Source: Candidatus Harrysmithiimonas galli
GTDB lineage: Bacteria; Bacillota; Bacilli; CAJFEE01
Direction: 5' to 3'
DNA length: 64,000 bases
Assembly: GCA_904373265.1 (NCBI GenBank)
Contig: CAJFEE010000007.1
Location: 43,108 to 107,107 of the forward strand
Positions 8,299 through 44,261 of this stretch are shown in pieces (within the stretch, counting starts at the first letter, position 1; every line of letters begins with the position of its first letter). Under the pieces are notes generated by a model. It saw only the letters and a program-made list of their open reading frames with translations. It was not told the origin of the DNA and made no database searches. The translations under genes were made by a program, and so were the position numbers.

Positions 8299-9840
8299 AT
8301 TTCATATCCATACATCCTATGTTACGGTTCAACGAGATTGCCCAGTTATGCGGAGCCAATGTCCGTGAAATTTCAATACATCCTATGTTACGGTTCAACG
8401 GACTAATCCAGATGCTAATGTAACAGGTAATCAAAATTTCAATACATCCTATGTTACGGTTCAACCCTATCGTCAATCGACACTAAGAGTTATGTTGGAG
8501 AATTTCAATACATCCTATGTTACGGTTCAACAAATAAAATAAAAGGAATTTTAAAAATACAGCAAGAATTTCAATACATCCTATGTTACGGTTCAACTAA
8601 ATTCGCCTTTCTCACTTTTGCATTTTCTTCCAATTTCAATACATCCTATGTTACGGTTCAACACAAAACCATTCCTATCCTCTGGAAATTCAAGAGGATT
8701 TCAATACATCCTATGTTACGGTTCAACCACGACCCTATCTACTGGGAAAGAAACAAGGTTGTATTTCAATACATCCTATGTTACGGTTCAACTTAGCCAT
8801 TTCTGATAAACTTGTAATCTCAAACATAATTTCAATACATCCTATGTTACGGTTCAACCGCGATGTACCCGATCTGTTTGGTCAGCGTTTTGATATTTCA
8901 ATACATCCTATGTTACGGTTCAACATATTCTGGCATTGGCAAACCAGAACCGCTAAAAGATTTCAATACATCCTATGTTACGGTTCAACTTACACATATC
9001 GTTTTTTATAACTTTAAATTTAACCATTTCAATACATCCTATGTTACGGTTCAACTTTTAGTCGCTGTGTTGTTAATTCGATGTTTTCAGATTTCAATAC
9101 ATCCTATGTTACGGTTCAACCTCTTGTGTTGGCTCCGCTTGTCGTTAAGGTCACGGATTTCAATACATCCTATGTTACGGTTCAACAATGACCTGGTTGC
9201 TTGTAAAATCTTCGTTTTTGTATTTCAATACATCCTATGTTACGGTTCAACATCTTCCCTGTATTTAGCCCAAGAATCTAAAGAAATTTCAATACATCCT
9301 ATGTTACGGTTCAACCTAATTTATCAGCCGGAAAAACTATTGGACTAACAACATTTCAATACATCCTATGTTACGGTTCAACAACTATAAAAAATATTAT
9401 ATTTACCTATCCCCTTCATTTCAATACATCCTATGTTACGGTTCAACCTCTTTCCTATAACTTTCACAGGCTATGGCAATTAAATTTCAATACATCCTAT
9501 GTTACGGTTCAACAACCACGGTAATACCTCAAAACGCGAATCAAAAAAATTTCAATACATCCTATGTTACGGTTCAACATCTCTCACAGCAATACCATGC
9601 AAATAAAAAAGATAATTTCAATACATCCTATGTTACGGTTCAACAGGTGGGAAATGTCATAGAGAAGTTATATTTATACTATTTCAATACATCCTATGTT
9701 ACGGTTCAACACTGTCTCCCAAACAGATACAGGCATTTCTTTTTGGATTTCAATACATCCTATGTTACGGTTCAACCCTGTGTTGTAAATGGAACAAAGA
9801 TTGCTGTTGCATTTCAATACATCCTATGTTACGGTTCAAC
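8299..9840 (-). CRISPR. CRISPR array 1: 23 perfect 30-bp repeats plus one degenerate trailer repeat, 23 spacers of 34-37 bp
   Basis: Repeat ATTTCAATACATCCTATGTTACGGTTCAAC on plus strand (minus: GTTGAACCGTAACATAGGATGTATTGAAAT, ending in the ATTGAAAT 3' handle typical of type I-A/I-B repeats, so transcription is inferred on minus). Degenerate repeat at the left (trailer) end. Confidence 0.98.
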
Positions 9841-10014
9841 CATTGCGGTTCATATGATCTATGCCTTTCATTATACAGGCATAACGTTGAAACATCAACA
9901 ATTTTTATAATTTTTTCCAATGATTTATGATTTTTTTAGAAAAAAGAAAAAGAATACGATAAACATTGAAATCTCAACATATAATTGCCCGATTGCCATC
10001 TTGTAATTGGAAAA
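9841..10014 (-). promoter_or_regulatory. probable CRISPR leader of array 1
   Basis: Non-coding AT-rich region between cas2 and the array, at the end opposite the degenerate repeat; similar to the right flank of array 2. Confidence 0.7.
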
Positions 10015-10305
10015 TTATAAAATTAAAGATTCTCCATTTTCTCGTTTATTTCCTAAAATTTCTTCTCCGAAAACTGTTTCATTCATCATTTTAATCATAC
10101 ATACAAAATCTTCCTCTTTATCAATGACTCTTTTTAAATCATTTCTCAGCGCAATCATATTTGATGGTGTAATTTCACCACGAAAGACAGATTTCTGGAA
10201 ATGCGATAAATATTTCTTACAAATCTTAAAAACCTTCTGCACACGTTTCTCATTGACATCATAAAACAGAAACATATAATTAAAATTTATATTTTTCTTC
10301 ATCAC
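10015..10305 (-). CDS. cas2: CRISPR-associated endonuclease Cas2
   Basis: 96-aa ORF adjoining cas1; MFLFYDVNEKRVQKVFKICKKYLSHFQKSVFRGEI is Cas2-like. Confidence 0.93.
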   Translation of the reverse strand: MMKKNINFNYMFLFYDVNEKRVQKVFKICKKYLSHFQKSVFRGEITPSNMIALRNDLKRVIDKEEDFVCMIKMMNETVFGEEILGNKRENGESLIL

Positions 10306-11318
10306 AGATTCTCCTTTAAGTCAAATGGTTTAAAATCCTGCCCTTCCATAATCATCTTAATGAGCTTATATGCATCCAGTTTCATCGCTGTTTGATAACT
10401 AATTTTTCTTTTCAATTTTTTATGTGTAAAAACAGATTGCAGTCGCGCTTCAAACGCTTCAATAAAAATATCTCTTCCTTCTTCATTGAGCAAACAATAG
10501 TTTACTTTTTTATCAAAATGCTTTTCAACTTTCAAACGTTTTCGATTGACCAATTCAAAAATCGTACGATACACAATGACTGGTTTAAATGCCTCACTTA
10601 AATCCAGGCTCAACGAAAATCTACGTTCAGATGGATCATGTAAAAAACTAATACGTTGATCCAAATGTGTACGATAGATGGCAGAGATCATCTTTGTATA
10701 CAACAGCATATTCCCAAATGAAATCAATGCATTCATAGGGTTATCCGGCGGACGCTTCACTCTTTTATTTAATATAAAATCCTCTGGCAAAAAATAGACC
10801 AAAGAACGGTAGAAACCTTCCCATAAATTTCCTTCATAGGCCATAATCTCAGGAATAGAATTTGCGGTCTTCACAGCTTCTGAAAAATCTTGATGGATCC
10901 AATCCAAAAATGGTTTTAAATCAGATTTTCCATGTCTATAATAATGATACAATGCTTCATAAATATTTTTCCCAATTCCTAAAACAATGGATTTTGCAAT
11001 TTTTAAACGCCGCACGGGATCTTTAAATGTTTCCACCTGCTTAATCAATACTTTCCCACTGTTATATTGATTTTTAGGATAGAATGTCCCTGTATAACCT
11101 TTATAATAATGAAAAAAATGAACCACAACATGGTTTTGAGATAAAAAATCAAGCAATTTTGTATTGATACTCACCTCATTTAAACAATAAATTTCCTTTG
11201 TATTCTCAATTGGGATGTACACATTTTTCCCATTCTTTCGAAAGCAAATTGAATGGTCTTTTCTTGTCAATTCGCCCATTGAACGAATATATTTTGTCGT
11301 TCCCATGCCTTTTTCCAC
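10302..11318 (-). CDS. cas1: CRISPR-associated integrase Cas1 (type I-B)
   Basis: YEGNLWEGFYRSL, NPMNALISFGNMLLYTKMISAIYRTHLDQRISFLHDPSERRFSLSLDLSEAFKP motifs. Confidence 0.96.
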   Translation of the reverse strand: MEKGMGTTKYIRSMGELTRKDHSICFRKNGKNVYIPIENTKEIYCLNEVSINTKLLDFLSQNHVVVHFFHYYKGYTGTFYPKNQYNSGKVLIKQVETFKDPVRRLKIAKSIVLGIGKNIYEALYHYYRHGKSDLKPFLDWIHQDFSEAVKTANSIPEIMAYEGNLWEGFYRSLVYFLPEDFILNKRVKRPPDNPMNALISFGNMLLYTKMISAIYRTHLDQRISFLHDPSERRFSLSLDLSEAFKPVIVYRTIFELVNRKRLKVEKHFDKKVNYCLLNEEGRDIFIEAFEARLQSVFTHKKLKRKISYQTAMKLDAYKLIKMIMEGQDFKPFDLKENL

Positions 11319-11333
11319 CCTTCATGATAAAAA

Positions 11334-11825
11334 TTAAATATAGCAATATTCATAGTACGCACATTTCTTACATTTTTTTGCATGTATGATTGGCGGGACA
11401 TCCTCACTTTGAACCAACTTTTGAATTTCTTCTATATATTGTGCAAGCATTTCTTCATTTTCCTTCGTTAATTCAAAAACCAACACTTTTTTCGTTTGTT
11501 TCTTCTTTTCAATAAATTCCAGTTTCCCCTTCCGTTCCAAACCCTTGTCTTTTAAAACCTTTAAATAGAACATAAGCTGCCATTTTGCCGCCTCTACATC
11601 TGCATCTGATTTTTTAATTTCTGTTACATATTCCTTTCCCAATTTATCCACAACAATGGACTCAATATGAATGTCATCTGCTTTTTGTGCATGCAATATT
11701 TTCCCCATTTGTACATGCTGGCTATTCTCTTCTAGGTTGAGTTTATGCATAGACAAGTAGCATTGCCTTTTGCAATGAAAATAATAATTGATTATCGTAC
11801 CAGTAACATTTATCAAATGATTCAC
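11334..11825 (-). CDS. cas4: CRISPR-associated exonuclease Cas4
   Basis: 163-aa ORF, CKRQCYLSMHKLNL at N-terminus and C-terminal CKKCAYYEYC cysteine cluster. Confidence 0.92.
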   Translation of the reverse strand: MNHLINVTGTIINYYFHCKRQCYLSMHKLNLEENSQHVQMGKILHAQKADDIHIESIVVDKLGKEYVTEIKKSDADVEAAKWQLMFYLKVLKDKGLERKGKLEFIEKKKQTKKVLVFELTKENEEMLAQYIEEIQKLVQSEDVPPIIHAKKCKKCAYYEYCYI

Positions 11826-11829
11826 CCCA

Positions 11830-14424
11830 CTAATAAATAAAATCTACATTTCTGACAAGATTCAGCTTCCCCTCTTTAAAATAATTCTCCCGATCTGCAA
11901 TATAATAAATTTCACCGACTTGTTCATCATAATAGGCAATGGCAGCCATTGAAGGCAGTTGATATAAAAAATAATTCATTTTTGCCCGGATTGCAGCAAG
12001 CTTCACCTTCTTCTTTGCAAATGAAATTTGCTCATTTTCCAACAGTTGAACATAGGTATCCCAAATTTCTTTCCCGTAAAAAACTTCACCCGTTTTCTCA
12101 TCTATAATTTCTCCATTAAAGAACACCCAAATCAATTGACGATTATCTTCAATTAATTCCATACGTTTGGCAATCCCAGCGTAGTCAAGCAGCATCAATT
12201 CATCTTCAAAAAACTTTCTCAAGCCTTCTGGCCCCCATGAATCATTGAAATTATTTTTCAAACTTTCCATAATCAGATCATAATAGTCCGAAAACCGTTT
12301 TTCATTCAGAATTTCTTGCATCTTGACTTGTTCCAACAAATAATCTGAGCTAATGCGCACATCTTTGTGATAAACTTTACTCGGCTCATCTACTTTAAAA
12401 AAATACACCCTACCCAATTTTTTCCCTGAGCGATTGATCCGTCCCAAAAATTGTTCTTCGCTATCCAGTTTAGAAATATTCTTATACCCAATATCCATAT
12501 CAATGTCTATACCCGCTTCAACAACCTGTGTTGCAATCAAAATTAAACCATTTGGTTGTTCTGAAGTTACTTCTTTCAAAATACGGTTGCGTTCAATGAA
12601 ACTATCATCGCCAGTCATTAATTCTATGACACATTCTAATTCTTCATCTTCTTTTAAAAGCTGAAAAAAATTTACTGCTGTTTTCTTACATATAAATTCA
12701 ACCAAAATCTTCCTGTTCTTTTCCACTTGCTCTGCAATATGTACATGCAGAGTGTCCATATCTACTTTTTGCTCTAGCAACTCAAAATTCAATTGAACTC
12801 GTTTTTTAAAAATCGGATGAGCAAAATATTTTTCACGATTGTCAACAAGATGTGTACAAATATGATCATTATTCATATACCTCGAATATATCTCGCTTTT
12901 TTGGTTTAATAAGTATGTAAAATCTGGCAATGTTGCTGACATCACAATAACTTTGCAATGAAATAATTTAGAAAACGCTTCCAAAAATAAGATGATCTCC
13001 GTCCAAATTTGGTTTTTATAGCTTTGAATCTCATCTAACACAATGACACTATTTGCAATTTGGTGAAAGGCAAACGCTGACTCACGACGCACACCAAATA
13101 AAATATCAAACAAACTCACATGTGTTGTTAAAACAAATGGATAATTTAAAAACTGTCGATCAAGCAAAATTTTTTCGTAATGTTCTGTATACATTTCTTC
13201 CTCTTTGAGTTTTTGATCATATCCCTTTACTTTCATTGGCGTCAATGCATTTACAACCGCAATCTGCTGAAATAATTCCGGATTGTTTCCAAATATTTTC
13301 TCCAGGTTATTTAAATTTTGTTCAACCAATGTGTTAAACGGATAAACGTACAAAATTTTGTTTAACTCTGTTTTTTCCTGAATCAGCTTGAAACTACAAT
13401 TGAAAGCAACATTGCTCTTTCCACTTCCAGTTGGTGCCTCAATAAAAAATATAAGGTCGTCCATATGCCGTTCCAGCTTCGATTCAATATCTAAAAACAA
13501 TTCATTTCGCAAAACAAAAATATCTTTCTCATTTGGAGAAACTTCTATTTGCTTGTACCGCTCTTTTTCATACTTACGAATTTGCTGCAAGACCGTTGTT
13601 TCTTGATAAGCTTGCTGGAAAGTGGCGATATCCGCCAAATTACCAAAATCGTGGATTTCCACATCATTCATATATGCAGTTGTAGCATAATAATCCGAAG
13701 CGATAAGCAACGAGAACAAAAATCGCAAATATCCAGATAAAAATAAAGCTTTTTCAGGTGTATTTTTTCTTAAACGAGAATCCACTGTCCGACATATTTT
13801 TTGCATTTTTCCCCATTGGAGCTGCGACTGAAATAAGTACAAATCATTTTGTTGTAATTTTTCGCCACTTATTCTCATCGTACCATTTGTAAATTTTTCT
13901 AAATAATTCTGGAATGCCTGTAACGATCCATGATGCTTGCTAATTAAGTAAGCATATAAAAATACAAACGGGAGAAGCAAACCTTTTTCCTTTTTTTCAA
14001 GTACTTTTAAATTTGTCATAAAATAATCTATATATATCAATGAGGATAAATTGGAATGTTTTGAGCCTTCTTTTAAAAAATCTTGAAAATGACCTTTTAA
14101 ATGATGATCCATTTTCTCACTTTGAAACTGGGGATTAATTTTTCCCAAATCATGGAAAGTAATTACATTTGCAGTCATCCGATAAAAAAATGTCCGTCCC
14201 GAATCCGACAGTGACTGTTCGAAATAATATGAAAGAAATCGATCAAAAACTGGAAATAACTGTTTTTTCTCAATGAGTTCCAAAAAATACATTTGGCATT
14301 TTTTTGTATGTGCTTGTAAAGTTTCTTTTTGATTTGTTTCTTTTTGCCGATGTGCATAAAATATATACTTTTGTGCATTGATACAATCTGCTATGTCAAC
14401 AAAATCTGTTTGCCTAAAAGCCAT
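11830..14424 (-). CDS. cas3: CRISPR-associated helicase-nuclease Cas3 (HD + DExH)
   Basis: HDLGK HD motif, APTGSGKSNVAF, VLDEIQ, MSATLPDF, ATQVVEAGIDID motifs. ORF track starts at TTG 14445; ATG at 14424 preceded by GGGGGTG is the likelier start. Confidence 0.94.
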   Translation of the reverse strand: MAFRQTDFVDIADCINAQKYIFYAHRQKETNQKETLQAHTKKCQMYFLELIEKKQLFPVFDRFLSYYFEQSLSDSGRTFFYRMTANVITFHDLGKINPQFQSEKMDHHLKGHFQDFLKEGSKHSNLSSLIYIDYFMTNLKVLEKKEKGLLLPFVFLYAYLISKHHGSLQAFQNYLEKFTNGTMRISGEKLQQNDLYLFQSQLQWGKMQKICRTVDSRLRKNTPEKALFLSGYLRFLFSLLIASDYYATTAYMNDVEIHDFGNLADIATFQQAYQETTVLQQIRKYEKERYKQIEVSPNEKDIFVLRNELFLDIESKLERHMDDLIFFIEAPTGSGKSNVAFNCSFKLIQEKTELNKILYVYPFNTLVEQNLNNLEKIFGNNPELFQQIAVVNALTPMKVKGYDQKLKEEEMYTEHYEKILLDRQFLNYPFVLTTHVSLFDILFGVRRESAFAFHQIANSVIVLDEIQSYKNQIWTEIILFLEAFSKLFHCKVIVMSATLPDFTYLLNQKSEIYSRYMNNDHICTHLVDNREKYFAHPIFKKRVQLNFELLEQKVDMDTLHVHIAEQVEKNRKILVEFICKKTAVNFFQLLKEDEELECVIELMTGDDSFIERNRILKEVTSEQPNGLILIATQVVEAGIDIDMDIGYKNISKLDSEEQFLGRINRSGKKLGRVYFFKVDEPSKVYHKDVRISSDYLLEQVKMQEILNEKRFSDYYDLIMESLKNNFNDSWGPEGLRKFFEDELMLLDYAGIAKRMELIEDNRQLIWVFFNGEIIDEKTGEVFYGKEIWDTYVQLLENEQISFAKKKVKLAAIRAKMNYFLYQLPSMAAIAYYDEQVGEIYYIADRENYFKEGKLNLVRNVDFIY

Positions 14425-14443
14425 AATTACACCCCCAAAATAC

Positions 14444-14482
14444 AAAAGCCACTTTCTACCATTTTGGAAAAAAGTGGCTTTT
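14444..14482 (-). terminator. terminator-like hairpin between cas5 and cas3
   Basis: Perfect 12-bp stem AAAAGCCACTTT / AAAGTGGCTTTT, followed on the minus strand by GTATTTT. Confidence 0.6.
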
Positions 14483-14485
14483 TAT

Positions 14486-15232
14486 TTAATAAAAAGTCAG
14501 AATACGACCACCTACCGAATAAGCCACTTTTTTTCGTTCGCTTACTTTCATATTGGTCAAAACAAAAGTCTTTACTTCATATAAATTGGTCTGTGCATTT
14601 AATGCAACAGGCAATTTTTCCTCATATTTATACGGATTCATATCTTCTTCATCTTCATCGTAATCATCATAATCCGGAAAATGAATGGCAAAATCCTGCT
14701 TTAAAAATAGGCTGTCCAATCGTTCTGGTTGTTCATATCTTATGACATCTGAAAAAATTTCTACATCTGAAATGGATGCCAGATGATCATTTTTCCCTAA
14801 ATATGGAATAAAAATGCTTTTCCTAATATTTAAATAATCTGCTAGCTTCTCACTTTCTTCACAAGCAACTTGTACATAAATATCCCATGCTGGACTTTCC
14901 AACCATTGCTCCCTAACCACAAGATTCCCACCTTGTTCTTGTGAAGCATAACCAACCGAATTGTTAAAAACTTGAATTTTTTTGGGAAATACGCCACCTA
15001 CAGCCCCAATTGGAACCACAGATAGCTGCAAATTCTTTAATCGTTCATAAAACGCTGGAAACATCTCGTCTTTTTTTTGCTGTGCATACCCCCCATAACC
15101 AAGGATTGCTCCAAATAAACCGAGCAATGCAATTTTATGCAAGTGACCATATGTAAAATAAAAATACGTGTTGACATCTGGTTTTTTAAAAAAGGCTGTT
15201 TCTCCGCTTAAACGAAATTTGAGCACTCTCAT
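14486..15232 (-). CDS. cas5: Cascade subunit Cas5 (type I-B)
   Basis: N-terminal MRVLKFRLSGETAFFKKPDVN and FGAILGYGGY typical of Cas5b/h. Confidence 0.9.
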   Translation of the reverse strand: MRVLKFRLSGETAFFKKPDVNTYFYFTYGHLHKIALLGLFGAILGYGGYAQQKKDEMFPAFYERLKNLQLSVVPIGAVGGVFPKKIQVFNNSVGYASQEQGGNLVVREQWLESPAWDIYVQVACEESEKLADYLNIRKSIFIPYLGKNDHLASISDVEIFSDVIRYEQPERLDSLFLKQDFAIHFPDYDDYDEDEEDMNPYKYEEKLPVALNAQTNLYEVKTFVLTNMKVSERKKVAYSVGGRILTFY

Positions 15233-15234
15233 GT

Positions 15235-16179
15235 TTAAACCTCTTTTTGTGTAAAAATATGGTATTGTTTGACATTCTCCACATCCGTTTTGATTTCGGT
15301 TGTGTTTGGATTATAATAAATTTCAACCTTTTGAATCTGGTTTTGCAATGAATTCAGCAGCCCCCCAATAGAAAAACCAATCGTATTTTTCTCCTCACCT
15401 TTTTCAAATTCCATATAAGCAGACAAATTCGGTAAATATACATCTGGATCGGTTTCCACAAATAAAGCAAATTCATTTTCACAGCCAATTTTGGCATTCG
15501 TTGCAAAAGCTGTAGCACTTTTTAAAGCGACCGCTTTAAATTTGGCATAATCGTCTTCGGTATAACCGTCGGTTACTCCCAACTCTTGATATTCTTTATA
15601 TGCAAGTGGATTGACCACAAACGGATAAAAATAATGCGCTTCATTGCTGACTATTTTCGTTCCAAGTGTAGAATTCTTCGCTTCTTCTGAATTTTCTTTT
15701 TTATCTTTTGTTCCATCACGAAACGGGGATAAAATTTGCTGTTCTTCTGGATTGGTATCGGCATAAAAATTCAATCCTTGACCAATTTGTACTGCCCCAG
15801 TAATGGAAATATTTTTCTTTTTTGCTGCAAAAGTGGCACCAAAATTTTTCACATCAATTGCACAAAACAGATTTTCCAATATTTCCTTGGCAGACGTATT
15901 CTCCAAATCTGGTACATTGAATAAATATTCGTATCGTTCACTTAATGTACGGGGAACAAGATTCACTCCACCCTTTTTCTCTGTGGATAGTTTGAAAGAT
16001 TTTATGTATAAAACTTTCTCACCCTGATCTTCCCACATTTTCTTCATAGGATATTTCAAAGCTTTATCGCTTCCAAACGTTGTCCCATCTGAAAGGGTTT
16101 TCGGATATCCACTAAAATCCGCATTCCAATTTGATAAAATCGAAGAAATTCCAATTATTCCATACACTCTTTTATTCAT
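15235..16179 (-). CDS. cas7: Cascade backbone Cas7 (type I-B)
   Basis: Position between cas8 and cas5; NFGATFAAKKKNISITGAVQIGQGLN is Cas7/Csh2-like. Confidence 0.9.
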   Translation of the reverse strand: MNKRVYGIIGISSILSNWNADFSGYPKTLSDGTTFGSDKALKYPMKKMWEDQGEKVLYIKSFKLSTEKKGGVNLVPRTLSERYEYLFNVPDLENTSAKEILENLFCAIDVKNFGATFAAKKKNISITGAVQIGQGLNFYADTNPEEQQILSPFRDGTKDKKENSEEAKNSTLGTKIVSNEAHYFYPFVVNPLAYKEYQELGVTDGYTEDDYAKFKAVALKSATAFATNAKIGCENEFALFVETDPDVYLPNLSAYMEFEKGEEKNTIGFSIGGLLNSLQNQIQKVEIYYNPNTTEIKTDVENVKQYHIFTQKEV

Positions 16180-17920
16180 TTTCTATTTCCTCCTTTTTTT
16201 CGTAGAACAAATTGCTATGCAAAAAACCATTAATTAACATACTTCGGTCAACGATATGACTTCCCGGTTCATATGCTGTTGCCATAGCGTACAAATGATT
16301 GAAACGTTTTTCATATATCGTAATGTCATAGTTGTATTTCATATATAATTTCTCCAGTTTTTCTTTTAAAAGTCGATCGGTTTTCACAGTTAAAAAGCCG
16401 TTTAACAAAGATTGTGGAATCTTTTTGCTTTGACTTTTTGAAAATAAGTAATAAATCAATTGTCCTACTACAAAGTAATATTCATGATCACTCTGAATTT
16501 GGTCTGTTTCTTTCGCATACATCTTTTGTTTCAAATTTTTCTTTATTTCATTAACCCGGTCCCCCATATTTTCTCCTCCTTCAAAATAAATTTTTAATGA
16601 AAGCCATAAATTAAATTGATGTGCAGCTTTCTTTACATTTCCTTTTAGTAAAGAATTCCTTAGCAATAAAAATACAACCTGATCATATAGACCTCGAAAT
16701 AATACAGCATTTCCCTTATATAACCATTCAAACAAGCTATCTCTTGTCAGCACAAATAGCTGCTTTTCTATTGAATCTTTCAGCGGAACATCTTTTGCTG
16801 GTGTAAAATAATTGTTGGATAAAAAAGGAAATAAATATTTCTCCAATAGATCTTCCATTTCCCGACGTTTCCAAATGGACCCATATGGGTAATCTTCCAA
16901 CCTTTTTATATGTAAATGATTATTCTGCTCAAAAGATTTAGATAATTCCTCATAATAACCAGAAATCACATCAAACCGATGAATCTCTGCTCCTTCCTTC
17001 CCTTTTTGAATGCGCAAAAAATAGCCGCTAAAATGCGCTGGGCATTTCCCATCTTGATAAGACTGAATGGTTGCTGTATCTGGATCAATATAGATATTAA
17101 ATTCTCTTCGATCAGCGAAGCTTAACAAATACTCAAAAAATTCCAGTTGCAAAATGGCTTCTTTGATTGAGATTAAGTACGGAATCTTTGTTTTGCGACT
17201 TTTGTTTTCCAAAAACGGTTTTTTATCATTCATGCTCATATTTTGATTTGGCAAACCCAAAATACCAGTCTCAGTTTTTATGTTAAAATCATTTTTATTG
17301 TAAATCGTTGGATAGAGATATCTTTCAAACTCTTGCTCATACACCGCCAACGGAAATTCAAAAAATATTTTCAAATAATCTTTTCCTTCTATTGCACACC
17401 ACTTCTCCAAAGAAAAAATATTTTGCAGTATCCACGTTTTAGCTTTCTCCAAACTTGTACAATCAACTGGACCATTCTTTTCTTCAAAAGCTTGATAAAG
17501 CTCCAATGACTTCGATTTCTTAGCATACTTTACTGAAAAATCTTTTAATGTATCATAATAATTTACAATCCCTTCAGACGTTAACTTGCCGCCTTTTAGG
17601 CTCTCTTTTTTCACAAAAAACGAGCAATAATTGTTGCTGTGAATGATCTTTTGTTTATCTACAGGCTTATTCATATCTCGCAACTTACTATAGAAGTCAT
17701 ACCGACAAATATCCCGAAATTTAGGATTGGCTCTGGCTGCCAATTCTTTTGCTTTTTTATCTTGTTTCACTTCAATGATAGTTGGCTCACCAAAACCATC
17801 ATCTTTAACCGGAACCAAAAGATAACTGCCATCTACAGGAATATAATTATCAAAAATCAGCGCCATTCCTTTTTGTTTCAATTCCTGTTCAAACACTTCT
17901 AAGCAATCTTTTAGCATCAT
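16172..17920 (-). CDS. cas8b: Cascade large subunit Cas8b-like
   Basis: 582-aa ORF in the cas6-cas8-cas7-cas5 position; overlaps cas7 start; C-terminal GQLIYYLFSKSQS...HLYAMATAYEPG. Confidence 0.82.
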   Translation of the reverse strand: MMLKDCLEVFEQELKQKGMALIFDNYIPVDGSYLLVPVKDDGFGEPTIIEVKQDKKAKELAARANPKFRDICRYDFYSKLRDMNKPVDKQKIIHSNNYCSFFVKKESLKGGKLTSEGIVNYYDTLKDFSVKYAKKSKSLELYQAFEEKNGPVDCTSLEKAKTWILQNIFSLEKWCAIEGKDYLKIFFEFPLAVYEQEFERYLYPTIYNKNDFNIKTETGILGLPNQNMSMNDKKPFLENKSRKTKIPYLISIKEAILQLEFFEYLLSFADRREFNIYIDPDTATIQSYQDGKCPAHFSGYFLRIQKGKEGAEIHRFDVISGYYEELSKSFEQNNHLHIKRLEDYPYGSIWKRREMEDLLEKYLFPFLSNNYFTPAKDVPLKDSIEKQLFVLTRDSLFEWLYKGNAVLFRGLYDQVVFLLLRNSLLKGNVKKAAHQFNLWLSLKIYFEGGENMGDRVNEIKKNLKQKMYAKETDQIQSDHEYYFVVGQLIYYLFSKSQSKKIPQSLLNGFLTVKTDRLLKEKLEKLYMKYNYDITIYEKRFNHLYAMATAYEPGSHIVDRSMLINGFLHSNLFYEKKEEIENE

Positions 17921-17929
17921 TACACCTCC

Positions 17930-18625
17930 CTATTTCCACTTGACATTGACAAATCCACTGCCCCTAGCGTTATTTCCCCCTAAGCCTACACCTAATGCAA
18001 AATGAGCCAAAATTTGGGCAGAAGAATGTTCAGAAATTTTCAGTTCTAATTTATCCCCAAGTAAAATAATATTTTTTTGTTTTACAGCAATTGGCTTACG
18101 ATTGGAAAAAGTAATGGAATTTGTCCATGTGAAATTTTCATCCAATTTTTTTCCAGTGGACTCATTATATTTTTTGACAAGATTAATAAAAAGTTGATTT
18201 TCATATTCTGATAGGGTCATCCAATCTCGCCAATAGCCTTTATCATTCTTTAACACAACCGGTGTAATGGAGTAGAGACGATCAATCGGACGATAAGGGA
18301 CAGTGCGAATTTCTGTAGATTTTCCTTGTAGTAAAGAGCTTTCATGATGTGATAAAACGCGGTCAAAATATATCGCTAAGTCTTTCTTAATGGTACGAAT
18401 GGTTAAAGTATATGGCTTGCCCACTTGATAAATTTTATTGCTCTCCATCGGGTACAACTGATCAAAGCAATAAAACTTAAATCTTCGTTGATGATGTAAC
18501 TCGCCAATACTTTCATCAAAAAATAAAGATGAATCCATAAATTGAATTAATGCTTGTTGTAATACTTCCCACAAAAGTTCTTTTTTGGGCAAAATCTTAC
18601 AACGAATTTGAAAAACATCTAACAT
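17930..18625 (-). CDS. cas6: CRISPR repeat endoribonuclease Cas6
   Basis: First gene of operon; C-terminal glycine-rich ALGVGLGGNNARGSGFVNVKW typical of Cas6. Confidence 0.9.
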   Translation of the reverse strand: MLDVFQIRCKILPKKELLWEVLQQALIQFMDSSLFFDESIGELHHQRRFKFYCFDQLYPMESNKIYQVGKPYTLTIRTIKKDLAIYFDRVLSHHESSLLQGKSTEIRTVPYRPIDRLYSITPVVLKNDKGYWRDWMTLSEYENQLFINLVKKYNESTGKKLDENFTWTNSITFSNRKPIAVKQKNIILLGDKLELKISEHSSAQILAHFALGVGLGGNNARGSGFVNVKWK

Positions 18626-19142: not shown

Positions 19143-19229
19143 ATAAAAATACATCCAATGTTACGGTTCAACAAAAATATAATAATTTAAAAAAACATAA
19201 TTTAAATACACCTATGTGTTAGGGTTCAT
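19143..19229. repeat. decayed CRISPR repeats (two) upstream of the cas operon
   Basis: 19143-19172 ATAAAAATACATCCAATGTTACGGTTCAAC differs from the array repeat at 4 of 30 positions; 19200-19229 ATTTAAATACACCTATGTGTTAGGGTTCAT is a more decayed copy. Confidence 0.75.
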
Positions 19230-38260: not shown

Positions 38261-38290
38261 ATTTCAATACATCCCATGTTACGGTTCAAC
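38261..38290. repeat. isolated CRISPR repeat (1 mismatch)
   Basis: ATTTCAATACATCCCATGTTACGGTTCAAC. Confidence 0.95.
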
Positions 38291-38481
38291 ATGAAAATGC
38301 AGTTGGAGCTAAAAAACTCATTTATGACACTATTGTAAAAGGAGTACAAAACGGTGAATCTGTAATGATGTTGCACAGAAAAACAGGTGTTTCCCGAAAG
38401 ACTATTTATAAAATCAAAATGAATGGTTCAATACTTTCGGTTAAATTCATTTTAATTTTAAAAGCTATCGTTTCTTACTAG
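38291..38481 (+). pseudogene. recombinase-type HTH fragment fused to a CRISPR repeat
   Basis: Reading frame HENAVGAKKLIYDTIVKGVQNGESVMMLHRKTGVSRKTIYKIKMNG, resembling a resolvase C-terminal HTH; its 5' side is CRISPR repeat. Confidence 0.55.
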
Positions 38482-38496
38482 ACTTTCATAAAAATA
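38418..38496 (+). repeat. 79-bp direct repeat, copy 1
   Basis: AATGAATGGTTCAATACTTTCGGTTAAATTCATTTTAATTTTAAAAGCTATCGTTTCTTACTAGACTTTCATAAAAATA; 3 mismatches to copy 2. Confidence 0.92.
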
Positions 38497-38658
38497 TAAT
38501 AAGGCTACGATTATGACTAAATTTTCAAAAATTCACAACCTTAGAAATGGGATTTTTAGGCAAAAAAACTTCTAAACTATTTCTAAAAAAAGGAGAAAAG
38601 GCTCCTGCTGCCTTCTGACAAGCCGCGCACCAGCTGGCAAGGGGTAAGGAAAGAATAG

Positions 38659-38687
38659 AAAAACCAGAGGATGAGTCCTCTGGTTTT
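38659..38687. terminator. rho-independent terminator
   Basis: AAAACCAGAGGA / TCCTCTGGTTTTT hairpin. Confidence 0.75.
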
Positions 38688-38770
38688 TCATTTTTCTACA
38701 ATGGCGCATGATACTTCTTGAGATGAAAGAATTGGAGAAAGAGGTCACACTACCACCTACCATTTTATGA

Positions 38771-38959
38771 TCACTTGTTTTTGGCATATGTCATAGTATA
38801 GGCACCTAAAGCAGCAAAAAAACAGCCGAATACAGCTATTACAATTCTCCATATTGCTCCTGGGAACTCTGTCGGAAACGGAAAAATTAAAGCTGCTATA
38901 AAAACTAGAAGCCCAAAAATTACTAACACAACGCCTGTTATGAGTTTTGTCTTTGTCAT
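38771..38959 (-). CDS. small two-TM membrane protein
   Basis: 62-aa ORF, mostly hydrophobic, in the same orientation as and directly downstream of the secreted-protein ORF. Confidence 0.55.
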   Translation of the reverse strand: MTKTKLITGVVLVIFGLLVFIAALIFPFPTEFPGAIWRIVIAVFGCFFAALGAYTMTYAKNK

Positions 38960-38976
38960 TTGTTATCTCTCAACCT

Positions 38977-39474
38977 TTATAAATTTATAGTAATTGTAGG
39001 CGATTCAATTGTTGAATCAAAAGAAGCTCCGATAGGGAATCCTAATATATCAAGACCAATGAACCAAGTACCTGTCACAGAATATTTTGTATTCATTCCA
39101 CCCAGCGCAGTACCATAACCGCTTCTATGTGTCCATGTAGCTCCCACAAGACCTGTCATATATGAATTGTTAACAGTAATATTTGAAACTCTACCGCCTC
39201 CGCTATTACTGTAATAAAATCTAATTTGAGCATTTGTTCTTGACAACAAACTGGTATTTCCACCACCCCACCAAGACACAGTAATAGTATACCACCCAGA
39301 AGAATTAGAGCTGCTTCTTGTGACATTTTTTATATCAATTTGCGGTTGGAGGTAACTTTATCCTCAACTTTCAGTTGCTGACAATTCTCTCTGTTCCGCA
39401 GCGAAGGCTGTTGTACTTACTCCAAATAGCATAATCACTGAGGGTAACATCGTTAACGATTTTCTTATCGTAGT
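38977..39474 (-). pseudogene. secreted protein gene with two in-frame stops between signal peptide and mature domain
   Basis: Same-frame reading MTTIRKSLTMLPSVIMLFGVSTTAFAAEQRELSATES*G*SYLQPQIDIKNVTRSSSNSSGWYTITVSWWGGGNTSLLSRTNAQIRFYYSNSGGG...ITINL. Confidence 0.7.
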
Positions 39475-39755
39475 CATTACCTCTATTTCTTTTCAGTTAT
39501 CAGGGATAGCTAACGCTCTTTCTTATTTTTATATCGTCTTTTTGAATTGTTTTTTAACAGTTTTTGATATTTTTTATTCAAAAAGAAAAATTTATTTTTT
39601 TGATCAATTATCTATATAATTGAGTAGTTAAAAAACTATAAAGGATTAAAGTAAAAAAATTATGTTTTTTATAAAGTATAAGCTTTTAAAATAACTTCTA
39701 ATTGAAAGGATAATAAAATAAAAATGCATGTATATTTATTACTGATTGCTACCAT

Positions 39756-39834
39756 AATGAATGATGCAATACTTTCGGTTAAATTCATTTTAATTTTAAA
39801 AGCTATCGTTTCTTGCTAGACTTTCATAAAAATA
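39756..39834 (+). repeat. 79-bp direct repeat, copy 2
   Basis: AATGAATGATGCAATACTTTCGGTTAAATTCATTTTAATTTTAAAAGCTATCGTTTCTTGCTAGACTTTCATAAAAATA. Confidence 0.92.
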
Positions 39835-39836
39835 AA

Positions 39837-39864
39837 AAATCCGTAATAAATACGGATTTTTTTA
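39837..39864 (+). terminator. rho-independent terminator
   Basis: AAATCCGTA...TACGGATTTTTTTA hairpin. Confidence 0.75.
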
Positions 39865-39995
39865 TTTAAGTATTTACTTTTTACTCTCTTGCTTTCTATT
39901 TTTTATACTATATTTTTATTTTGTTATTTCTAAAATATTTTGATGTTAATGCGGTTAAATGTAGTGTGGTTGGAACAGTCTTCAGAAATTAAGTA

Positions 39996-40025
39996 ATTTC
40001 AATACATCCTATGTTACGGTTCAAC
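39996..40025. repeat. isolated perfect CRISPR repeat
   Basis: ATTTCAATACATCCTATGTTACGGTTCAAC exact. Confidence 0.97.
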
Positions 40026-40135
40026 ACAAAACTCATAAAGAATGCAATATGTTAAAGTATATTGACTATTTTATATACTAATCCTCAAATATTTATGGTA
40101 ATACATGGTAAAAGAAAATAGGGAAGGAGAGAGCA

Positions 40136-40528
40136 TTGATATGTCCAAAATGCAAGAGTGATAATACTAGGATTGAGTTGGTGCGAGGTAGTGATCTGGT
40201 GGCTTTGGTAATATTTTCGTTTGCAACCCCTATTTCAATACTTATCGTACTTTTATTAACTGGCACATTATACACTACTGCCATTTTTTATGTTCTGGTC
40301 TATAACCGCGAAGCATTTATATTTATTATTAACTTGTTAGGTGTGGTAGTTGCTCTATTATTGATATCACTGAATATATACATAGCTTATAGGATATATC
40401 TAAGGAAAGAATACATCTTATGCCAGTCTTGTGGACAAAGTACTAGAGTAAGTAAGAATAATCCTGTACTTCAGAGAGTATTGCCCAAACAACAAGTACA
40501 AAAACAGAAAACAATATCTAAAAAATAA
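40136..40528 (+). CDS. small membrane protein with N- and C-terminal CxxC (zinc-ribbon-like) pairs
   Basis: MICPKCKSDNTR... two long hydrophobic segments ...YILCQSCGQSTRV; preceded by GGAAGGAGAG. Confidence 0.65.
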   Translation: MICPKCKSDNTRIELVRGSDLVALVIFSFATPISILIVLLLTGTLYTTAIFYVLVYNREAFIFIINLLGVVVALLLISLNIYIAYRIYLRKEYILCQSCGQSTRVSKNNPVLQRVLPKQQVQKQKTISKK

Positions 40529-40551
40529 TACATTGAGTCACTTTCTGGTCA

Positions 40552-40582
40552 CCCGAGAATATTATTTTCTCGGGATTTTTTC
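40552..40582 (+). terminator. rho-independent terminator
   Basis: CCCGAGAATATTATTTTCTCGGGATTTTTT. Confidence 0.8.
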
Positions 40583-40762
40583 CAAAATAAAAAGCCCTGC
40601 TCTAGCAAGACTTTAAAAAAGTGATATAATATTTTCGTTGCCTACTCCATTCCTGCAACAGGAAGGGGGAGCGAGCTTTGTCACTACTGAAATCGTCTTC
40701 TAAGCACATTATAACATATGTGCTCAACAAAAGTATACGCATATTGAATACTTTTTATTTAC

Positions 40763-40991
40763 TTATTGTATCGTTGCACCCAAAACCAGTACTTCATAAT
40801 CTTTAACCTTTACTTCTTCTCTACTCCAAGGGATGTTTGCTGCTCCAAATGTAGGTCTAACTTTTCCTGGGTGAACACCACCTTTATAATTTGCTCTAGT
40901 CACATAAAGCGGTGTGTCGTTCTCCTCGTTTCCACATACAATTGCACCCTTTGAAACTTCACCATTACTAGCTTTTTTTCCAGACTAACAT
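40763..40991 (-). pseudogene. DM9/DUF3421-like domain protein, frameshifted in an A7 tract
   Basis: RBS (AAAGGAGAGG) + ATG TTA GTC TGG then A7; dropping one A gives MLVWKKASNGEVSKGAIVCGNEENDTPLYVTRANYKGGVHPGKVRPTFGAANIPWSREEVKVKDYEVLVLGATIQ*. Confidence 0.7.
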
Positions 40992-41168
40992 AAAGTGTCC
41001 TCTCCTTTTTTAAAATTGATAAATTGTGATATCAGAAGTTACATTTATTTTTTTTAAAGCTTTTTTAATATATGTTACACAAATATTGCACGAATGTCGT
41101 ATGAAGATAACTTTTAAAACACGTACAATTAGCCGTGCGTATTTTATATAGCTTGTTTAAGCTAAAAA

Positions 41169-41205
41169 ATAAGAAAAGGGAAGGTATTTTCCTTCCCTTA
41201 TTTTA
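41169..41205. terminator. rho-independent terminator-like hairpin
   Basis: AATAAGAAAAGGGAAGGTATTTTCCTTCCCTTATTTT. Confidence 0.65.
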
Positions 41206-41597
41206 GAAAATCCGGTATCCGTAAGAATTTCTGCTTAATTGACTCCTTAGTTGAACATTCCTTCCTTGTGCTATGCTCCACCCAAGGGTTGACCCTATAC
41301 TCGCTATTTCTTGGCTACTCATATTAGAAGTCACATTAGGTAAAGTAATATTTACATACATATCTCCTGTCTAAAAGGACAGGTTAGAATGAGTAGATTT
41401 ACTTGCCATATAATCCAACTCTGTCAAGGCACGAACACCATCAGGAAGATGAAAAGTACCTCCAGATAAATTCTTTAACTTTTCTTCTGTTAGCTAACTC
41501 TGATGTAATAATAGCCAATCTATCATTGTACTCATTTATCTTCATATTTTGGAGTAGAGGACTGTCTGAGCTCACCCCGTCCAAAGCAGCCTGTTGC
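41206..41597 (-). pseudogene. remnant of a phage-type protein (possibly tail tape-measure C-terminal region), frameshifted and ending at a CRISPR repeat
   Basis: Minus-strand pieces MQQAALDGVSSDSPLLQNMKINEYNDRLAIITSELAN / TEEKLKNLSGGTFHLPDGVRALTELDYMASKSTHSNLSF* / GDMYVNITLPNVTSNMSSQEIASIGSTLGWSIAQGRNVQLRSQLSRNSYGYR in shifting frames. Confidence 0.5.
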
Positions 41598-41693
41598 ATT
41601 TCAATACATCCTATGTTACGGTTCAACAAAAAACATGAAAATCAAAAATGGAAAAAATAAAAAATTTCAATACATCCTATGTCACGGTTCAAC
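41598..41693. CRISPR. two-repeat mini-array (one 36-bp spacer)
   Basis: Perfect repeat 41598-41627, spacer 41628-41663, repeat 41664-41693 with one mismatch (ATGTCACGG). Confidence 0.95.
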
Positions 41694-41977
41694 AGGGCTG
41701 TCCCTTTCCTAAAGGTTTTGCCTCTGTGAATTTTTTTCGCTCCAACAAAAGTGAAACACTTAAACTTTAAATCAATCAACTTCTAGTTACTGCAATCAAG
41801 AAAAAAGAAACAAAAAAACTGCCCTCTGCTATCTAAGCAAAAATAGCAAGTCATACTCGTTTAAAAATCTGATTCCTGACAAATTCAATTTGATTCTAAT
41901 ATCCTTTATATCTTCTTTATTTCTTCATCATCAGCCAAATTAAAAGTAGGTCTACACCATATTATCACAATACAAAC

Positions 41978-42325
41978 CTATTCCTGCTCATAATTTTTCA
42001 AAATTTCATTACCCTTTTCTACAAACATACCAGTATTTACAAATGATCTTAAAATAAAAATCAAATTATCTCTAATAAAAACAGGATTAATTTTCATAGC
42101 ATTTTGCTCAAAAGCAAAGTTATTTCCATTATAATTCTGGATAAGAATTCTAAGATCTCTTAAATCTTTTTTTGATAAATCATACATAACTGTAGTTTCA
42201 TAAATTGTTGTTTTTTGCATTTTGTCATCGTTTAACGACCCTATTAATGTCAAAAGACTTCTGTTATGAAATTTAACTTTTTCTATTTCGTTAATTAAAT
42301 TTTGGTATTCATTATTTTCGAGCAA
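41978..42325 (-). CDS. hypothetical protein
   Basis: 115-aa ORF; LLENNEYQNLINEIEKVKFHNRSLLTLIGSLNDDKMQ...; likely non-ATG or near-ATG start. Confidence 0.5.
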   Translation of the reverse strand: MLENNEYQNLINEIEKVKFHNRSLLTLIGSLNDDKMQKTTIYETTVMYDLSKKDLRDLRILIQNYNGNNFAFEQNAMKINPVFIRDNLIFILRSFVNTGMFVEKGNEILKNYEQE

Positions 42326-42340
42326 CCATTATCCCCCACT

Positions 42341-42430
42341 TATAAAAGAAATGCATCTATTGCCCAAGCTATATTTCTAGCATAAAAAGTAGGTACACCA
42401 GCACTTAATAAAGCTTGATAAATTTCACCA
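42341..42430 (-). pseudogene. 3' fragment of a gene ending at a CRISPR repeat
   Basis: Minus-strand frame GEIYQALLSAGVPTFYARNIAWAIDAFLL* begins at the repeat edge. Confidence 0.5.
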
Positions 42431-43643
42431 ATTTCAATACATCCTATGTTACGGTTCAACTTGGATCGTAATTGGTAATTGCGATATCAAAGTAAAATTT
42501 CAATACATCCTATGTTACGGTTCAACATCAATAATCCGGACGGTTCGATTCGGATTACGAAATTTCAATACATCCTATGTTACGGTTCAACTTTAACCCT
42601 TTATAGTCAGTGTACTGTGCTCTTGTAATTTCAATACATCCTATGTTACGGTTCAACGCCTTTAACATCTACGGAAAATAAAGTTGGGACAAAGATTTCA
42701 ATACATCCTATGTTACGGTTCAACCCGGTTTTTTTATTTTTAAAATCTATCTATAATGTATTTCAATACATCCTATGTTACGGTTCAACCTACAATAACA
42801 GTGGATTTTCCATTAGGTACATAATTTCAATACATCCTATGTTACGGTTCAACGTTAAATTTGCTTTCACTATTTTTCTACCACCTTTATTTCAATACAT
42901 CCTATGTTACGGTTCAACTAATTTATTAGCCGGAAAAACTATTGGACTAACAAAATTTCAATACATCCTATGTTACGGTTCAACCGCAACTCTCACTTTA
43001 CAAAAGTATTCTTAATCAATATTTCAATACATCCTATGTTACGGTTCAACATCCATCATCGTAATTTAACGGGTTATCTAAACCCATATTTCAATACATC
43101 CTATGTTACGGTTCAACTTAAAGCATAAAAATTATCACCGACTTCTTCCAAAATTTCAATACATCCTATGTTACGGTTCAACGGTTCGGATGTTACAGGG
43201 TTTAGTGAAACATCAACATTTCAATACATCCTATGTTACGGTTCAACATTTCATTTCAATAATGCCGTGCATATCCCGAAAATATTTCAATACATCCTAT
43301 GTTACGGTTCAACAACTATAAAAAATATTATATTTACCTCTCCACTTCATTTCAATACATCCTATGTTACGGTTCAACGGAAGCGAGAAAAAACAATATC
43401 GTTTTCGAATAGAATTTCAATACATCCTATGTTACGGTTCAACAAGGATTACCCGAATAATGTTAATATAAAAATACAGGATTTCAATACATCCTATGTT
43501 ACGGTTCAACTATATTAATTTCTTCACCACCTAAACTTTTTACAAAATTTCAATACATCCTATGTTACGGTTCAACCTTTACCATTCTGACTGCCTGTTG
43601 CTGTTGTAATGGGATTTCAATACATCCTATGTTACGGTTCAAC
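42431..43643 (-). CRISPR. CRISPR array 2: 19 repeats, 18 spacers, no adjacent cas genes
   Basis: Same 30-bp repeat as array 1 at regular 64-67 bp period, spacers 34-37 bp. Confidence 0.98.
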
Positions 43644-43760
43644 CATTGGTGTTATGTGATTTATATTTTTCATCATACCTGAATAGCATTGAGATTGCAA
43701 CATTTGGCATAGATTTTTCCAATAAAGATCAAGTTTTTTACCAAAGGAAAAAATGCTCCA
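43644..43760 (-). promoter_or_regulatory. probable CRISPR leader of array 2
   Basis: Aligns by eye with array 1 right flank (CATTG..GTT.AT.TGAT.TAT...TTTCAT.ATAC..G.ATA...TTGA...CAACA...TTTTTCCAAT). Confidence 0.65.
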
Positions 43761-44261
43761 AAACCATTGAAATACCAACATGTACCTAAACCCCAACAGA
43801 TTCTTAGTTGGAAAAAACTTTATCTTTTGCAGAAAATATTCTATCATCAATGGTTATGCCCACGCTATAAAGAGCAAGACTTTTACCATCGAATCAATAT
43901 TTATGTTTTGCACTAAGGCTTTCCTATCAAAACTTCATAAACTCAGACAGTATGAGCAACAGCTAGATAGCTTTTCTCTTTCCTATACCGAAAAAATTAA
44001 GCTTGGGACAAAAATTATTCAAATGAAAAATCGTATGGAAAAACATCACACTTGCCTAGGACATATTCCTGTAATTTCCTGTCACTCTTTTATACACATT
44101 CCTTTCATATCGCCATATTTTTACATACTTATTCATATCCTTCAATGTTTCTTTGCACAGTCAATCAGAAAAAATTTTTTCTGATCGACTCCTTTCACTT
44201 TCGAACTTTGTTCCCATTTTTTATTTTATATTTCTGAAACGTTTTTCCAAGTGATTGACAG

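Follow-up and report, generated by a model that had tools for sequence, protein, structure and literature searches.

Two spacers of CRISPR array 1 recur in CRISPR array 2 as near-identical but distinct versions (pairs A and B, Table 1). Sequence comparison indicates that each pair represents, with high probability, two independent captures of one protospacer from phages that had diverged, as an earlier note on this DNA had proposed. The window is a stretch of 64,000 nucleotides corresponding to positions 43108-107107 of contig C7, in a 2.7 Mb genome assembled in 59 contigs.

The window carries a complete type I-B CRISPR-Cas system on the minus strand with the gene order cas6-8b-7-5-3-4-1-2, in which every Cas protein is intact (PADLOC). 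The large subunit Cas8b is accompanied by Cas7, Cas5, Cas6 and Cas3, and the adaptation module (cas1, cas2 and cas4) adjoins an array provided with a leader. The 30-nt repeat, whose crRNA-sense end is ATTGAAAT, also conforms to this type. Array 1 lies directly beyond cas2 and its repeats match Rfam CRISPR-DR3, while array 2 is located ~33 kb away. The 42 repeats of the perfect series are all identical across the two arrays. The crRNA-sense repeat, GTTGAACCGTAACATAGGATGTATTGAAAT, implies that crRNAs are read on the minus strand and that the leaders are at the right ends of both arrays. The leaders of arrays 1 and 2 share 62% identity, and the leaders of six arrays of the genome align with a conserved TTTTTCCAAT block. 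Since a leader can be recognised at each of the two arrays and no Cas protein is disrupted, past activity of both, as previously suggested, is reasonable. Contigs C34, C6, C2, C13 and C27 carry additional arrays or fragments of arrays, not mentioned in the earlier note, whose repeat is the same or closely related. Contigs C34 and C6 stop inside arrays (at C34:21819 and C6:109536, respectively) with the same repeat in a compatible orientation, and these ends may be one long array split by the assembly.

Table 1. Features of the type I-B locus, its arrays and the spacer pairs (window coordinates)
Feature	Position	Strand	Description
type I-B cas operon	10015..18625	-	PADLOC
cas6	17930-18625	-	PADLOC Cas6b 3.2e-77
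cas8b	16172-17920	-	PADLOC Cas8b 3.5e-173
cas7	15235-16179	-	PADLOC Cas7b 4.2e-38
cas5	14486-15232	-	PADLOC Cas5b 5.3e-54
cas3	11830-14445	-	PADLOC Cas3b 2.2e-264
cas4	11334-11825	-	PADLOC Cas4b 1.3e-52
cas1	10302-11318	-	PADLOC Cas1b 1e-139
cas2	10015-10305	-	PADLOC Cas2b 3.4e-35
CRISPR array 1	8304..9840	-	23 perfect 30-nt repeats and 1 degenerate leader-distal repeat (8304-8333); spacers 34-37 nt
array 1 leader	9841..10010	-	between array and cas2; conserved TTTTTTCCAAT-like block
CRISPR array 2	42431..43643	-	19 perfect repeats; orientation as array 1
array 2 leader	43644..43815	-	
pair A spacer, array 1	9316..9352	-	crRNA sense GTTGTTAGTCCAATAGTTTTTCCGGCTGATAAATTAG, 37 nt
pair A spacer, array 2	42919..42954	-	crRNA sense TTTGTTAGTCCAATAGTTTTTCCGGCTAATAAATTA, 36 nt
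pair B spacer, array 1	9383..9417	-	crRNA sense GAAGGGGATAGGTAAATATAATATTTTTTATAGTT, 35 nt
pair B spacer, array 2	43314..43348	-	crRNA sense GAAGTGGAGAGGTAAATATAATATTTTTTATAGTT, 35 nt
array 2 spacer A2_5	42725..42759	-	opposite-strand overlap with C27_28 (array on contig C27), 1 mismatch in 25
C6_9/C6_14			single change, position 1
C6_0/C6_4			single change, position 32
C27_8/C27_10			identical except length, 37 vs 34 nt
C27_21/C27_26			ribosome-binding site, one-base indel

The surroundings of the two arrays show other irregularities. Solitary perfect or near-perfect repeats occur at 38261, 39996, 41598 and 41664, at the leader-distal end of array 2. Those at 41598 and 41664 form one normal repeat-spacer-repeat unit. 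The gaps in this region (38261-42430), of 1.7, 1.6 and 0.74 kb, contain unrelated and partly decayed genes, as though foreign DNA had entered between the repeats, and one stretch occurs twice (around 38415-38490 and 39755-39830). Upstream of cas6, at 19145-19229, a 27-nt spacer-like stretch is enclosed by two degenerate copies of the CRISPR repeat. This layout resembles the creA component of CreTA toxin-antitoxin modules (PMC8501985), but could equally be read as a decayed mini-array. A toxin gene was not identified there, and the best nearby matches to the potential guide are short (a 6-nt run at the start of cas6).

The coordinates, lengths and mismatches given earlier for the two pairs proved exact. 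In crRNA orientation the two copies of each pair have their 5' (PAM-side) start in common. The copies of pair A start with GTTGTTAGTCC... in array 1 (37 nt) and TTTGTTAGTCC... in array 2 (36 nt). They are identical at 34 of 36 aligned bases, with differences at positions 1 and 28, and the additional base of the array 1 copy is at the 3' (PAM-distal) end. Pair B is identical at 33 of 35 bases, with differences at positions 5 and 9. Chance likeness was rejected because both pairs stand far above randomised spacers: they score 32 and 29 whereas the best pair in 40 Markov-1 random spacer sets reached at most 15, and their 5'-anchored identity is 0.94 in each case compared to 0.69 for the best in 30 shuffled sets. 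The pairs are adjacent in array 1 (spacers 15 and 16 of the perfect-repeat series) and are spacers 8 and 14 in array 2, with five spacers between them. The pair further from the leader, and hence older, is pair A in both arrays. None of the neighbouring spacers is common to the two arrays. It had also been noted that one pair translates on the minus strand, as expected for allelic phage genes. The frame VVSPIVFPADKL is indeed open, but it is not the sole open frame. A second on the opposite strand (NLSAGKTIGLT / NLLAGKTIGLT) makes the coding argument ambiguous.

Re-capture from diverged phages would operate as follows. A single type I-B adaptation machinery (Cas1-Cas2-Cas4) would serve several arrays with related leaders. 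The PAM would fix the 5' end of the spacer, so that repeated captures begin at the same base, and the PAM-distal end would be loosely trimmed to give 34-37 nt. The sequence differences, some 5-6% over the pair A and B sites, would be polymorphisms between related phages or phage generations. They may be enriched in the PAM-proximal seed, which is expected if escapers of the older spacer were sampled again. The phage origin of the pairs, PAM fixation and the order of events are inferred. A duplication conserves both ends of a spacer while re-capture at one PAM conserves only the PAM side, and changes in distal length therefore favour re-capture. Such changes are observed in pair A and in C27_8/C27_10. 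Together with the lack of common neighbours, the limited leader identity and the distribution of substitutions, they argue for re-capture. Substitutions affect 4 of 71 positions in the pair A and B spacers but 0 of 1260 in the 42 repeats (Fisher p = 7e-6), a contrast that is weaker if the repeats are homogenised or under selection. Pair B has equal lengths and, taken alone, is compatible with duplication followed by mutation.

The same pattern is found elsewhere in the genome, where arrays on other contigs contain four more near-identical pairs (Table 1). In all five ungapped pairs the 5' ends coincide and any length difference is located at the 3' end. This combination of a common PAM-side start and a free PAM-distal end is that expected for independent acquisition. 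Random spacer pairs share a length in only 32% of cases, with lengths clustering at 34-37. The opposite-strand overlap between A2_5 and C27_28 is one more site captured two times, a case not easily accounted for by duplication, and C2_18 and C2_23 overlap partially, over 14 nt. A scan of GTDB genomes for the repeat matched a single other organism, a Tissierellales MAG (JAHDQO010000016.1), whose array belongs to the same 30-nt repeat family although the organism is unrelated. No spacer of this array is common with the present genome. It includes a spacer pair of like form, with a common start, lengths of 34 and 36 nt and a change at position 5; the two members are also distinguished by inversion of a hairpin loop (GGAAAGCTTACTTTCC / GGAAAGTAAGCTTTCC). 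A true duplication is present in the array on contig C6 (L012, minus strand 225-309). There the spacer copies are identical (35/35) around a truncated 15-nt repeat, and the doubled spacer is the product of a slip or recombination inside the array. Duplications in this genome thus look unlike the near-identical pairs.

In seven spacers of the arrays on C2, C6 and C27 a gene start is immediately preceded by the ribosome-binding motif ATTTTTGGAGGGATTTTTT or by a close variant of it. Of these spacers, six start within two bases of one point of the motif, one is from the opposite strand, and the genes downstream are mostly different. This suggests a PAM immediately before a ribosome-binding site that is conserved in phages.

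Array or block duplication, followed by loss of the intervening spacers from array 1 and by point mutation of the copies, would account for the identical order of pairs A and B in the two arrays, for the involvement of the same two arrays in both cases and for the equal lengths of pair B. The earlier note had discarded it because the pairs are five spacers apart in array 2. This spacing argument is weak on its own, since the pairs keep their order from one array to the other and a subsequent deletion could account for the spacing; it is other evidence that leads to the rejection of duplication. The difference in length of pair A would require an indel exactly at the spacer-repeat border, neighbours are not shared, substitutions are confined to the spacers, the leaders are only 62% identical, the copies of the real duplication on C6 are identical to each other, and like pairs are present within other arrays and in another organism. 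Duplication is accordingly quite improbable. Filling of arrays 1 and 2 in different lineages, later united by horizontal transfer of one array, is slightly less so but still unlikely. Array 2 is indeed located apart from the cas operon, and unrelated DNA interrupts its leader-distal end between solitary repeats (38261-41693), but repeat and orientation are the same as in array 1, the leaders are related and independent captures would still be required. Least probable is an origin of both versions from paralogous sites, i.e. a repeated element within one phage genome. The seven spacers with the ribosome-binding motif exhibit such a family, with different downstream sequence, but most of them diverge after about 20 nt, whereas the likeness in pairs A and B extends from end to end.

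Primed re-acquisition, in which a seed-mismatched older spacer drove the Cas3-dependent capture of new spacers including its own updated version, is a special case of independent capture and does not exclude it. We consider it possible, though doubtful. Four of the six substitutions in the ungapped pairs fall within positions 1-9 (p about 0.04), and five of eight are seed-side with inclusion of the Tissierellales pair (p about 0.03). As these statistics use a post hoc cut, chosen after seeing the data, and very few events, the apparent seed lean is suggestive only. Priming has a direct precedent in the Legionella type I-C system (PMC5071653), and mismatches are also enriched in the seed of SIRV protospacers (PMC6452263). 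However, about as many same-site pairs are expected from repeated sampling without priming: a birthday-type estimate with ~158 spacers, taking as assumed values one to three phage families and one PAM per 16-32 bases, gives ~1-5. Neither hotspot nor primed sampling, which the pairs had been taken to imply, is therefore required.

A phage source of the two versions, for which a search had been proposed earlier, did not emerge from the collections covered here. No protospacer of pairs A and B was detected in 50,697 phage records (only a weak match to a Yersinia phage, E = 0.5), among 72,556 plasmids, in 85,462 GTDB genomes (only one exact 21-mer of pair A), in 400 genomes of the class or elsewhere in the genome itself. 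Among the weak matches in the class genomes, the two loci that were read (L025 and L029) are look-alikes of pair A in apparent fmt and 5-formyltetrahydrofolate cyclo-ligase genes and were taken as chance. A match with three mismatches in the genome itself is antisense within a dxr-like gene and was also attributed to chance.

The genome contains prophage genes on contig C36 (integrase, repressor, polymerase and terminase) and at the start of C4 (L041:1-3100; tape measure), which we infer from gene content to be one prophage. It did not give rise to pairs A and B. Two other spacers have diverged counterparts in it: A1_11 in the tape-measure gene (32 of 35 positions identical, mismatches at 2, 3 and 35) and C34_7 at the start of the repressor-like gene (30 of 36). 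Both are tolerated self-matches, the former with mismatches in the seed. The two diverged sites are flanked by AATTTTAA and CGCAGTTA, two sites being too few for a motif. Diverged alleles of spacer targets thus exist in phages of this lineage.

Near-identical spacer pairs within a genome show that the host met related phages more than once, and the combination of a common PAM-side start and a free distal end provides a simple test to distinguish re-capture from duplication. The arrays might further be a readable record of escape and re-capture, in which phages mutated in the seed were captured again at the same site with the same PAM, although we hold this only tentatively. If true, pairs within a genome would both date and place phage escape mutations. 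Should the seed bias hold on a larger set, phage escape could be read from host genomes without the phage, and recurrence of seed-biased differences in unrelated arrays would constitute a general fossil record of escape.

Re-capture of the same site in one genome is a documented event, of which the present pairs are a clear further instance and not a new mechanism. In Legionella type I-C, older spacers mismatched in PAM or seed preceded newer, perfectly matching ones with overlapping targets (PMC5071653). As here, spacer pairs of the same genome (L. pneumophila Toronto-2005, against LME-1) derive from overlapping sites at different acquisition times (PMC5071653). However, the LME-1 target is known and the newer spacer is perfect in that case, while pairs A and B lie in two arrays of a type I-B system and are known from the spacers alone. 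Independent acquisition from one locus has been reported in Thermus (PMC6452258). The same-site capture resembles that of pairs A and B but was deduced from different CRISPR types or partial overlap, and occurred between isolates or system types, whereas pairs A and B are sequence variants within one genome and one system. Variation of targeted sites is concentrated in the PAM-proximal bases, as may be the case here, in the SIRV viruses of Sulfolobus islandicus (PMC6452263), where it is supported by thousands of mismatches on virus genomes compared to the handful of spacer-spacer differences in the present genome.
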